Virus record (IMG/VR): IMGVR_UViG_3300038825_000928
Span: 1-27,836 of that record
Reading direction: 5' to 3' (one strand)
DNA from: a virus
Length of the DNA: 27,836 nucleotides
Made by a program: the position numbers and the translations under genes. Below the pieces are notes generated by a model. That model was not told where the DNA came from. It saw only the letters and a program-made list of their open reading frames with translations, and made no database searches. Below are positions 8,958-12,771 of this stretch, piece after piece (position 1 is the stretch's first letter; every line of letters starts with the position of its first letter).

Positions 8958-9470
8958 ATGGGTAAAGCAGGAGAATTTCCCGCATATAAAAAGGCTCAGG
9001 TATCAGAACTGATACCATACGCACGAAACAGTCGGACGCACTCTGAGGCGCAAGTCTCAAAGATTGCATCGTCCATCAAGGAGTTCGGCTTCCTTAATCC
9101 CGTGATTACTGATGGGCAAAAGGGCATCGTAGCAGGTCACGGTCGCCTTATGGCTGCGCAGAAGATCGGCATGGACGAAGTGCCGACGATTGACGCAAGC
9201 CATCTCACAGAAGCCCAGCGCCGCGCATACGTCATTGCAGACAACCGGCTGGCACTAGATGCGGGGTGGGATGATGACCTGCTGAAAATTGAATTGCAGG
9301 ACTTAGATCGCGAAAGCTTTGACCTGACGTTGACGGGGTTCGAGTTGGGAGAATTATCTAATATGTTTTTAGAGAATAACCCGGCAGAAGCGCCAGATGA
9401 CTTCTCAGAAGTTGATGAGACCGATATGTCGCACATCTGCCCAAAGTGCGGGTTTGAGTTTGATGGCTGA
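8958..9470 (+). CDS. ParB-like nuclease-domain protein, stand-alone
   Basis: The 170-residue protein has a ParB/Srx-type domain in residues about 12-85: SELIPYARNSRTHSEAQVSK, IKEFGFLNPVITD, IVAGHGRLMAAQKIG, DEVPTI. It then has RRAYVIADNRLALDAGWDDD and a single CPKCGFEF near the C-terminus. In many phages this domain is fused in one chain to an N4/N6 adenine or cytosine methyltransferase. Here it stops just after the CPKC motif and an unrelated C5-methyltransferase gene overlaps it by 8 bp. It may guide or regulate the modification enzyme or act as a nuclease; the role is inferred. Confidence 0.75.
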   Translation: MGKAGEFPAYKKAQVSELIPYARNSRTHSEAQVSKIASSIKEFGFLNPVITDGQKGIVAGHGRLMAAQKIGMDEVPTIDASHLTEAQRRAYVIADNRLALDAGWDDDLLKIELQDLDRESFDLTLTGFELGELSNMFLENNPAEAPDDFSEVDETDMSHICPKCGFEFDG

Positions 9471-10536
9471 ATATAAAATTCCAACCGTCAAGGAGCTGCG
9501 GAGCGCGACAGAGAGCGGCAACCATAAGTTTGAGGTTGTCTCTCTATTCGCGGGAGGAGGAGGCTCGTCTACGGGCTATAGAATGGCCGGAGGAAAGGTT
9601 TTAGCCGTCAATGAGTTTATGCCAGAGGCAGTTAAGACCTACACGGCGAACTGGCCGACGACACAAGTTCTGCCCAACGATGTTCGCAAGCTATCAGGGC
9701 AAGACATTCTTAAAGCTATTGGCAAAAATCAAGGTGATTTAGACATCTTGGATGGTTCGCCGCCATGTTCGGCCTTTTCAACCGCAGGCATTCGAGACAA
9801 GGGTTGGGGCAAGAAAAAGAAGTATTCAGACGCAGAGCAGGAAAATGTTGAGGACTTGTTTTTCGAGTATATCCGCGTTTTGCGAGACATCCGACCAAAA
9901 GTATTTGTGGCCGAAAATGTCAGCGGGTTGGCAAAGGGCGTGGCTAAGGGTTATTTGAACGAAATCCTGCGAGAACTAAGGCAAAGCGGCTACGAAGTCT
10001 CATGCAAGATACTTGACGCGCAATGGCTTGGTGTTCCTCAAAAGCGGGCGCGCACAATCTTTGTTGGGGTTCGAAACGACCTATGGAGACCTGAGTTTAA
10101 GGGTAAGTTGCATCCAAAGCCCTATGGAGAAAGGCCGACGCTCAGGCAGGCGTTTGAGGGGCTTGCTTTTACGGACAAGGACCGAGAGCAGACTGAAATG
10201 TCAAAATATGCAACTTTTAGAGAGTTGATAAAACTTCCGAGGGGTGGGGAAAGCAAGAAATATTTTCAGCTTGTCAAAGCTAACCCTACTTCGGTTTCCC
10301 GTTGTGTGACTGCTAGCTCAGGGGCCTTGTCAATCGCTTGCGTAAGGCATTGGGACAATAGAGCGTTTAGCGTTTCCGAGGTGAAGCGCATTATGTCTAT
10401 TCCTGATGACTATATTTTGACGGGGACGTATCAACAGCAGGTAGAGCGCCTTGGACGTATGGTTGCGCCGTTCATGATGAAAGCCGTGGCAGAAAACATC
10501 TTAGAACTAGGAGTGTTAAATGCAGATACCAAGTGA
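9463..10536 (+). CDS. C5-cytosine DNA methyltransferase (or related alkyltransferase)
   Basis: The 357-residue enzyme places a one-carbon or related group on C5 of cytosine in a target DNA site, using a SAM-type cofactor. Motifs in order: I FAGGGGSSTGYRMAGG (29-44), IV SPPCSAFSTAG with catalytic Cys102, VI AENVSGL (150-156), VIII QKRARTIFVGVR (193-204), a target-recognition region (about 215-290), and X ERLGRMVAPFMMKAVAENIL (328-347). ATG 9463 overlaps the ParB stop by 8 bp. Motif X normally reads GN(S/A)V; here Asn is Arg332. That Asn contacts the cofactor, so a non-standard cofactor is possible. No cognate restriction endonuclease is nearby, so host-restriction avoidance or DNA protection is likely. 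Confidence 0.88.
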   Translation: MAEYKIPTVKELRSATESGNHKFEVVSLFAGGGGSSTGYRMAGGKVLAVNEFMPEAVKTYTANWPTTQVLPNDVRKLSGQDILKAIGKNQGDLDILDGSPPCSAFSTAGIRDKGWGKKKKYSDAEQENVEDLFFEYIRVLRDIRPKVFVAENVSGLAKGVAKGYLNEILRELRQSGYEVSCKILDAQWLGVPQKRARTIFVGVRNDLWRPEFKGKLHPKPYGERPTLRQAFEGLAFTDKDREQTEMSKYATFRELIKLPRGGESKKYFQLVKANPTSVSRCVTASSGALSIACVRHWDNRAFSVSEVKRIMSIPDDYILTGTYQQQVERLGRMVAPFMMKAVAENILELGVLNADTK

Positions 10537-11173
10537 AGGCTCATGGTCATTTGATGCCAATGGAATTGCAGACGCATTTGATGCTCATGTAAGAGAGCAG
10601 CTTCCTTGGTATGACTTGGCGACGGATGCTCTTGTTCATATTGCGCGGCATTACATTCCAGAAGGCGGGATAGCTTATGACATAGGCGCATCAACGGGCA
10701 ATGTAGGACGTGCTATTAAAGAAATACTAGAAGACAGATCAGCAAAACTTATTGCCGTCGAAAAGTCAGAGGAAATGTCGAAGCGGTACAATGGGCCGGG
10801 TAATCTTATCGTCGCAGATGCGAATGAAATTGAATTTGAACCCTTTGACTTTGGGGTTGTTTTCCTCGCGGCTATCTTCATGCCGGTGACAAAGCGCAAA
10901 ATCTTATTAGATAACATGACCAAAAGGTTAAGAGACGGCGGAGCAATCGTGCTTGTAGAGCGCATGGAGGCAGGAACAGGTTATCCTTCAACAATCAGTG
11001 CGAGAATAACGCTCGCAAATAAATTAAAGTCAGGCGCGTCTGCTAATGATATAATATCCAAAGAACTAAGTCTTAGCGGAGTGCAGAGGCCAATGTCTCA
11101 AGGTGAGATACCTGATAACGCCGTCGAGTTTTTTAGATTAGGGGATTTCGCTGGCTGGATTATTCAAGGATAG
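10520..11173 (+). CDS. CmoA-like SAM-dependent methyltransferase-fold enzyme
   Basis: The 217-residue class I fold has AYDIGASTGNVG as motif I (52-63), AVEKSEEM after strand 2, and FGVVFLAAIFMPVTKRKILL, then GGAIVLVERM. The start GSWSFDANGIADAFDAHVRE and order of strands align with CmoA, which makes carboxy-SAM from SAM and prephenate, better than with ordinary methyltransferases I know. From memory, CmoA Arg199 that holds the carboxylate falls at Glu182 here, which argues against identical chemistry. It overlaps the methyltransferase gene by 17 bp, so the two are co-translated. It looks somewhat A+T-richer than the terminase genes that follow. It could instead methylate another substrate. 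Confidence 0.6.
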   Translation: MQIPSEGSWSFDANGIADAFDAHVREQLPWYDLATDALVHIARHYIPEGGIAYDIGASTGNVGRAIKEILEDRSAKLIAVEKSEEMSKRYNGPGNLIVADANEIEFEPFDFGVVFLAAIFMPVTKRKILLDNMTKRLRDGGAIVLVERMEAGTGYPSTISARITLANKLKSGASANDIISKELSLSGVQRPMSQGEIPDNAVEFFRLGDFAGWIIQG

Positions 11174-11177
11174 AAAA

Positions 11178-11570
11178 ATGGGACGTAAGCCGAAAATCTT
11201 AACCGACGAGCAGCGAGCGCAAGTAGAGGCACTAGCTGCGTATCTATCGCAGGAACAAATCGCCGATTATTTTGGCATTGGTAAAACAACATGGTTTGCC
11301 ATGATGAATCGCGACCCTGACATTTCCGAACGCTATAAAAGAGGCAAGGCAAAAGCTATCGTTGCTGTAGCGCAGGGTCTTCTTCAAGATGCTAGAAATG
11401 GGGATAGGCTATCACGAATGTTCTATCTCAAAACGCAAGCTGCATGGCGGGAAACAACCGCTCATGACCATTCATCAAGCGACGGAACTATGGTTCCTGA
11501 AACTATAATTATCCGAGCAGCAGAAGATATTAACATCGACGAAGCAGATGACGAAGAGCGCCTCCATTGA
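11178..11570 (+). CDS. Terminase small subunit
   Basis: The 130-residue protein binds the packaging site and directs the large subunit. The N-terminal helix-turn-helix reads LTDEQRAQVEALAAYLSQEQ, then IADYFGIGKTTWFAMMN. A basic helix (RYKRGKAKAIVAVAQGLL) and an RLSRMFYLKTQAAWRET segment follow, common in small terminases of this type. The acidic tail (INIDEADDEERLH) probably contacts TerL. It starts four bases after the CmoA-like stop and overlaps TerL by 23 bp. Confidence 0.8.
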   Translation: MGRKPKILTDEQRAQVEALAAYLSQEQIADYFGIGKTTWFAMMNRDPDISERYKRGKAKAIVAVAQGLLQDARNGDRLSRMFYLKTQAAWRETTAHDHSSSDGTMVPETIIIRAAEDINIDEADDEERLH

Positions 11571-12771
11571 CCTGCCGCCGAGCCTTGTCCCGGTCTACGC
11601 GCCGCTGAGAGGCTCCGCACAGTACCGAGCGACATATGGAGGGCGAGGCTCTGGCAAGTCACAATCAGCAGCACTCATGGCGGCAGTGTGGGGCTTCGCA
11701 GAACCTCTGCGCATTCTCTGCACCCGTGAACTGCAAGTCAGCATTAAGGATAGCTTCCACCGCGAGGTAAAGGACGCCATCGAACGAACCCCATGGCTGG
11801 CGGCTCACTACGACGTCGGCGTCGATTATCTTCGCGGTCGCAACGGCACTGAGTTCGTCTTTCGCGGGCTTCGTCATAATAGCAGCAGCATCAAGTCGCT
11901 CGCGGGCATTGACCTGACGATTGTGGAAGAGGCCGAGGACGTACCGGAGGATAGTTGGCTGGCGCTAGAGGCTACAGTGTTTCGGAATCCCAAATCGGAA
12001 CTATGGGCGCTCTGGAACCCGCGCAGCGATGCTTCCCCGGTAGATAAACGCTTTCGACAGACGCCGCCAACCGGTGCTATCATTCAAGAGATAAACTGGT
12101 CTGGAAACCCATTCTTTCCTCCGAACCTCAACCTGCTACGGCAGAGAGAGCAGCAGCGCCTAGACCCGGCGACCTATGCCCATATCTGGGAGGGGGCATA
12201 TCTCCAGAACAGCGATGCGCAGGTATTTGCCAACAAGTTTGAGGTCAGAGAGTTTGAGCCGCAACGACAGTGGGACGGGCCATACTACGGGCTAGACTTC
12301 GGTTTCGCCCAAGACCCGACCGCAGCCATAGAGTGTTATCTGCACAACGATTGTGTATATATACGCAGAGAGGCTGGCCGCGTCGGCTTAGAGATTGACG
12401 ACACGCCAGCATTCCTGCGGGAGCGAATGCCGTTGATTGAGCAACACACAGTGCGGGCTGATAGCGCCAGACCAGAGAGCATCAGCTATCTGCAACGGCA
12501 CGGCATCTCCAGTATCAAGCCGGTTAAGAAATGGGGCGGCAGTGTAGAAGACGGCGTTGCCTTTATAAAATCGCGTGACCGTGTTATCTTACATCCTGAC
12601 TGTGCGGAAACTGCGCGAGAGTTCCGCCTATACTCGTATAAGCAAGACCGCCTAAGCGGGGATATAATGCCGAAGATAGTCGATGCTAACAACCACTTCA
12701 TCGACGCTCTGCGATATGCTCTCCAGCCGATGATTGGCGGGACGTCTCAACAAGTCTTCGGAGTGCTCTGA
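11548..12771 (+). CDS. Terminase large subunit (ATPase-nuclease)
   Basis: This is the 407-residue packaging motor. The ATPase half has Walker A GGRGSGKS (31-38), Walker B DLTIVEEAED (122-131) with the catalytic acid, and motif III-like LWALWNP (152-158). The nuclease half shows YGLDFGFAQDPTAAIEC with Asp250, RADSARPESI with Asp305, and DANNHFIDALRYALQ with Asp386, the RNase H-type metal set. The PBSX/Terminase_3 type is suggested by the GxRGSGKS and NPFFPP patterns. It cuts concatemers and drives DNA into the prohead. It ends on TGATG with the portal start. Confidence 0.9.
   Translation: MTKSASIDLPPSLVPVYAPLRGSAQYRATYGGRGSGKSQSAALMAAVWGFAEPLRILCTRELQVSIKDSFHREVKDAIERTPWLAAHYDVGVDYLRGRNGTEFVFRGLRHNSSSIKSLAGIDLTIVEEAEDVPEDSWLALEATVFRNPKSELWALWNPRSDASPVDKRFRQTPPTGAIIQEINWSGNPFFPPNLNLLRQREQQRLDPATYAHIWEGAYLQNSDAQVFANKFEVREFEPQRQWDGPYYGLDFGFAQDPTAAIECYLHNDCVYIRREAGRVGLEIDDTPAFLRERMPLIEQHTVRADSARPESISYLQRHGISSIKPVKKWGGSVEDGVAFIKSRDRVILHPDCAETAREFRLYSYKQDRLSGDIMPKIVDANNHFIDALRYALQPMIGGTSQQVFGVL

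Follow-up and report, generated by a model that had tools for sequence, protein, structure and literature searches.

The window analysed here covers one IMG/VR record from end to end, a fragment 27,836 bases long, and its gene content marks the source as a tailed phage. Ahead of the terminase genes, which are followed by portal, protease, and capsid genes, lie three overlapping genes that encode a ParB-like protein, a C5-cytosine methyltransferase (C5-MTase) homolog, and a CmoA-like protein (Table 1). The ParB-like protein matches phrog_620 (1.6e-56), and its gene overlaps that of the C5-MTase by 8 bp. AGGAG stands directly upstream of the ATG of the CmoA-like open reading frame (ORF). The C5-MTase reading frame is open from 9397, and the alignment of close relatives from residue 1 supports a start at 9463. 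The SPPC motif with Cys102 is present in the letters of the window, as are three features named in the initial annotation: the motif X GRMV with Arg332, the 17-bp overlap, and Glu182 of the second protein. The conserved unit is longer than the range 9463-11173 given there and begins with the ParB-like gene at 8958.

Table 1. Features of the cassette and the adjoining terminase genes, in window coordinates.
Feature	Position	Strand	Evidence or remark
ParB_N-domain protein, 170 aa, cassette gene 1	8958..9470	+	Pfam ParB_N 2.7e-6
CmoX-type C5-cytosine carboxymethyltransferase (predicted), 357 aa	9463..10536	+	44% identity to SpCmoX; 8YF3 model match
SPPC motif, catalytic Cys102	9757..9768	+	TCGCCGCCATGT; aligned to SpCmoX S95-C98
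Motif X GRMV	10453..10464	+	GGACGTATGGTT; Arg332 aligned to SpCmoX Arg350
Arg332 codon, at the Asn position of methylating enzymes	10456-10458	+	
Overlap of C5-MTase and CmoA-like ORFs, 17 bp	10520-10536		ATGCAGATACCAAGTGA
CmoA-like putative carboxy-SAM synthase, 217 aa	10520..11173	+	TIGR00740 best model; fold
Lys181-Glu182 of CmoA-like protein	11060..11065	+	Aligned to E. coli CmoA Lys198-Arg199
Terminase small and large subunits	11178-12771		

The C5 enzyme resembles the carboxymethyltransferase CmoX

Carboxymethylcytosine chemistry was first shown in December 2025 for the Synechococcus phage S-B43 (genome MN018232), whose CmoX and CmoA make 5-carboxymethylcytosine (5cxmC) in GC motifs (Yang et al., PMC12783734). 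Arg350 of its CmoX (SpCmoX) contacts the carboxymethyl group of carboxy-SAM (Cx-SAM), and the wild-type enzyme accepts only Cx-SAM and cannot use SAM (PMC12783734). CmoY of S-B43, an AMP-forming amide ligase, then adds glycine to 5cxmC, and the phage DNA contains 5gcxmC and no 5cxmC (PMC12783734). The same study collected 5,615 CmoX candidates, drawn from IMG/VR and other sources; CmoA accompanies many of them and ParBc genes accompany some, so the family of the window's CmoX is probably included.

The C5-MTase of the window matches Pfam DNA_methylase (9.6e-53) and is 44% identical to SpCmoX over 356 columns. Among solved structures, the nearest to it in sequence is 8YF3 (3.3e-80), the S-B43 CmoX with Cx-SAM, which is also the top PDB match of its AF2 model (pLDDT 91) with an E-value of 1.6e-33, versus 2.6e-21 for M.HhaI. 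Residues F29, E51, F52, D73, SPPC/C102, and R332 align with the Cx-SAM and catalytic residues of SpCmoX named in PMC12783734, and at the position of SpCmoX Arg350 and M.HhaI Asn304 the window enzyme has Arg. In M.MpeI N374K, an engineered carboxymethyltransferase cited in PMC12783734, exchange of the motif X Asn for a basic residue permits Cx-SAM use; that enzyme is a Lys mutant of a CG methyltransferase, whereas the window enzyme carries a natural Arg and belongs to a phage family. Carboxymethyl transfer from Cx-SAM to DNA cytosine is thus the predicted activity of the window CmoX. The joint presence of a motif X Arg and an overlapping CmoA gene is not chance, because Arg332 is invariant across the CmoX alignment (39 rows) and the overlapping CmoX/CmoA pair recurs across the window clade, defined as relatives from about 60% identity up, and in Moraxella phage Mcat8.

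The motif X arginine is linked to CmoA

The linkage between the motif X Arg and CmoA was counted in a set recovered with C5-MTase queries, CmoA not being used, and reduced to 140 representatives at 90% identity. A CmoA homolog lies within 3 kb of 60/70 Arg-type C5-MTases and of 0/70 relatives with Met or Asn in motif X (GMSV, GNSV, GNAV, or GNCV; Fisher p 3.5e-29), and among loci whose two flanks each span 1.5 kb or more it accompanies 38/41 Arg-type and 0/42 non-Arg enzymes (p 1.7e-20); the p-values overstate independence, the representatives being related, but the non-Arg group separates without a single exception. Seven of the 10 Arg-type enzymes lacking a nearby CmoA have less than 1.5 kb on one side. 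The linkage counts are the opposite of the outcome that the initial annotation, in proposing such a survey, had named as counting against its reading, namely Arg-type enzymes that mostly lack a CmoA neighbor. An ordinary 5-methylcytosine (5mC) methyltransferase with an incidental Arg, beside an unrelated methyltransferase, would agree with a fold and motifs typical of C5-MTases, but the inability of wild-type SpCmoX to use SAM (PMC12783734) and the near-complete linkage, with CmoA beside none of the non-Arg relatives, make it very improbable.

Several related loci were also recorded. No CmoA was found near the C5-MTases of 82 phage loci with GMSV, in which Met takes the place of the motif X Asn (L352-L431, L187 4929-5996; Flavobacterium phages included). 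Exceptions that lie outside the CmoX family, a C5-MTase without the Arg beside CmoA, occur in two staphylococcal phages and in L151. The staphylococcal enzymes (L184 6491-7498 and L189 5684-6682) read VVGGVINQ in the motif X region, with neither Asn nor Arg, and in L184 an Asn_synthase-type gene lies between CmoA and the C5-MTase; in L151 (7100-8636) CmoA overlaps a C5-MTase with GFPC and with NGMTVP in place of GRxV. A GLMV C5-MTase in Methylophilales phage Melnitz-3 (L188 4010-6194) adjoins a Tet/JBP-type oxygenase, which suggests a 5mC-oxidation route rather than carboxymethylation. Alcaligenes phage Afa-NA1 (L192 4956-9500) has CmoA with a D12 adenine methyltransferase 2.5 kb downstream and no C5-MTase in its genome.

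The CmoA-like protein and the loss of Arg199

The initial annotation had likened the second protein to CmoA, and this resemblance holds: residues 6-150 match E. coli CmoA (4gek, 2e-10), and the best NCBIfam model is TIGR00740 CmoA (1.9e-13, 50.6 bits). The score is under the curated cut-off of that model (50.6 versus 193.3 bits), as is that of SpCmoA (115.6 versus 193.3 bits), a proven synthase. We rejected the cut-off failure as counter-evidence, and by this comparison the cut-off does not define phage Cx-SAM synthases, because proven SpCmoA lies below it too. The structure model has its highest TM-score (0.83-0.84) to 4gek, although by E-value the methyltransferase CysG is slightly better than CmoA and ranks first. 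Compared with E. coli CmoA, which serves the tRNA cmo5U pathway (PMC3663124), the window protein keeps the fold and Tyr39, Asp62, Gly64, and Ser66 of the SAM site; it differs in having no CmoB partner, in the change of Arg199 to Glu, and in a C-terminal third that is shortened and diverged.

Arg199 of E. coli CmoA is the ligand of the carboxylate (Byrne et al., PMC3663124), and the initial annotation had held its replacement by Glu182 against Cx-SAM synthesis. Alignment confirms the replacement, but the argument fails, since proven SpCmoA aligns with Lys187-Glu188 at the E. coli Lys198-Arg199 site. The kcat of SpCmoA is ten-fold above that of E. coli CmoA (PMC12783734). Glu occupies the Arg199 site in 88/88 CmoAs of the window type and in 27/29 sequences of the S-B43 type. 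We therefore set aside the loss of Arg199 as evidence against synthesis; judged by alignment, the residue is not required in phage CmoAs, because SpCmoA has Glu188. Given how common Glu is at this site, Arg199 is unsuited for rejecting phage CmoAs. Candidates for a new carboxylate ligand are Arg162 and Arg190, both invariant among window-type CmoAs, and, in the S-B43 type, Arg192. We call the second protein CmoA-like, with Cx-SAM synthesis from SAM and prephenate as its predicted activity.

Another reading is that this protein is a downstream methyltransferase, for example a CmoM-like enzyme acting on the carboxyl of 5cxmC, while a host CmoA supplies Cx-SAM. In favor of this reading, E. coli CmoA is able to supply SpCmoX (PMC12783734), the window protein shares no more than 20% identity with SpCmoA in a pairwise comparison, its Glu replaces Arg199, and its fold matches to small-molecule methyltransferases about equal those to CmoA. 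Yet CmoA is both its best sequence family and its best TM-score, the same Glu is found in proven SpCmoA, and the CmoA gene tracks the Arg of CmoX, as a cofactor supplier would. We regard the downstream role as improbable and retain the assignment as a putative Cx-SAM synthase.

A conserved cassette with no detectable amide ligase

ParB, CmoX, and CmoA are common to 30-32 loci of the window clade (ParB family in 30, CmoA family in 32), and the other neighbors vary; beyond this trio, terminase genes alone recur in many loci. Mcat8 (KR093632) contains an unannotated cassette with the order ParB–CmoX–CmoA and overlaps as in the window, followed likewise by a small gene and then terminase. Its CmoX is 65% and its CmoA 48% identical to those of the window; outside the cassette the phage is different, and its host is Moraxella. 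The S-B43 system shares with the window the C5-MTase fold, SPPC, the motif X Arg, and a nearby CmoA homolog with Glu at the Arg199 site. The window differs from S-B43 in its ParB–CmoX–CmoA order with overlaps and in a shorter CmoA, and its clade in having a ParB-like gene in front and no CmoY.

SpCmoY homologs were found near CmoX in 0/36 entries of the window clade (some of them duplicates), compared with 26/52 other CmoX loci (3 kb on both sides). Whole-record searches for the Asn_synthase domain and SpCmoY homologs found none in the 27.8-kb window, in nine IMG/VR contigs of the clade (13-49 kb), or in the complete Mcat8 genome; the same search recovered the ligase in 3 positive-control records. 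Two bacterial genomes with the cassette (L165 and L166) have other Asn_synthase-domain genes and no SpCmoY homolog. Alternatively, 5cxmC could be converted to an amide, comparable to 5gcxmC of S-B43, by a ligase outside the fragment or by an unrecognised enzyme, and this amide would then be the final base. The absence of 5cxmC from S-B43 DNA and the SpCmoY homologs in half of the other CmoX loci favor an amide, but with no such homolog near CmoX in the clade, no ligase in complete Mcat8 or the nine contigs, and just terminase genes recurring in many clade loci outside the trio, we consider it unlikely. Because no ligase is detectable in the window clade, complete Mcat8 included, its modification pathway likely ends at bare 5cxmC, although the window itself is an incomplete genome.

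Other arrangements of these genes were also seen. Seven clusters (L059, L062, L066, L068-L070, and L076) have two tandem CmoX genes each, sometimes with CmoA and CmoY. In Streptomyces phage TurkishDelight (L185 5887-9354), ParB, a CmoX with GRAV, and CmoA occur together with a glutamine-amidotransferase/Asn-synthase protein, a gene set that would fit the formation of a primary amide from 5cxmC.

phrog_5475, a second protein found beside CmoA

A scan with CmoA also returned loci without CmoX that carry phrog_5475, a protein of about 500 aa with ParB_N and a methyltransferase-like region, which is unrelated to C5-MTases and in some members includes a Methyltransf_23-like stretch. A scan with phrog_5475 only gave 80 loci, 79 of them with a CmoA homolog alongside (the exception is L212), and over all 89 loci without CmoX (L103, L104, L106-L110, L121, L125, L134, L137, L143, L152, L153, L164, L190, and L206-L276) CmoA adjoins it in 88. 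Four weak C5-MTase matches occur in the 89 loci, and the two inspected (L109 and L125) look like ordinary GYPC/GNAV enzymes; none of the 89 has a SpCmoY homolog. The CmoA beside phrog_5475 is of the window's type, at about 50% identity. The complete phages Gordonia Evaa, Aeromonas HJ05, and Pseudomonas SM1 carry phrog_5475 with more distant CmoAs, and no C5-MTase was found anywhere in these three genomes.

N4/N6 methyltransferases were considered as the CmoA partners in CmoX-less loci and rejected, the partner being phrog_5475, which has no N6/N4 Pfam match. A published preliminary search gave no CmoA-tied N6 or N4 carboxymethyltransferase candidates (PMC12783734). ParB–Methyltransf_23 fusions in phages have been noted, in the passages of PMC12704722 that describe them, with no mention of CmoA. 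From its neighborhood, phrog_5475 is a candidate Cx-SAM-dependent and probably DNA-modifying enzyme.

Proposed mechanism and significance

Taking together gene anatomy, homology, residue conservation, gene linkage, and the ligase absence in relatives, we consider it highly probable that the window encodes a compact CmoA–CmoX-type cassette for the modification of phage DNA, with bare 5cxmC as its likely product. The CmoA-like enzyme would use prephenate, as known CmoAs do, to convert SAM to Cx-SAM. The Arg332 enzyme would then flip the cytosine of its presumed target sequence out of the DNA, Cys102 would attack C6, and the carboxymethyl group would be transferred to C5 to give 5cxmC, which may protect the phage DNA against nucleases of the host. 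A helper function on DNA is probable for the ParB-like protein. The route to 5cxmC that the initial annotation had proposed, from a CmoA-type protein and a motif X Arg enzyme, is supported: it is the chemistry shown for the S-B43 homologs, the window CmoX retains the cited residues, and most Arg-type enzymes have a CmoA neighbor; it was right in kind, yet the chemistry is already in print (PMC12783734). Beyond that study, the present analysis resolves the objection from Arg199, quantifies the linkage, and adds the ligase-free clade and phrog_5475 as a lead.

The ligase-free branch can now be set beside the published system, with Mcat8 as a named complete genome for it. The link between phrog_5475 and CmoA points to further Cx-SAM-dependent modification that is unreported in the published survey (PMC12783734). 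We tentatively suggest, at slightly less than even confidence, that phage CmoA supplies transferases of more than one kind, with phrog_5475 as a second class and bare 5cxmC as the terminal base in the window clade. If so, this second class of Cx-SAM-dependent enzymes would be one that has not been described, and if bare 5cxmC is indeed final, the carboxylate itself, beyond being a mere handle, would make a natural phage base.
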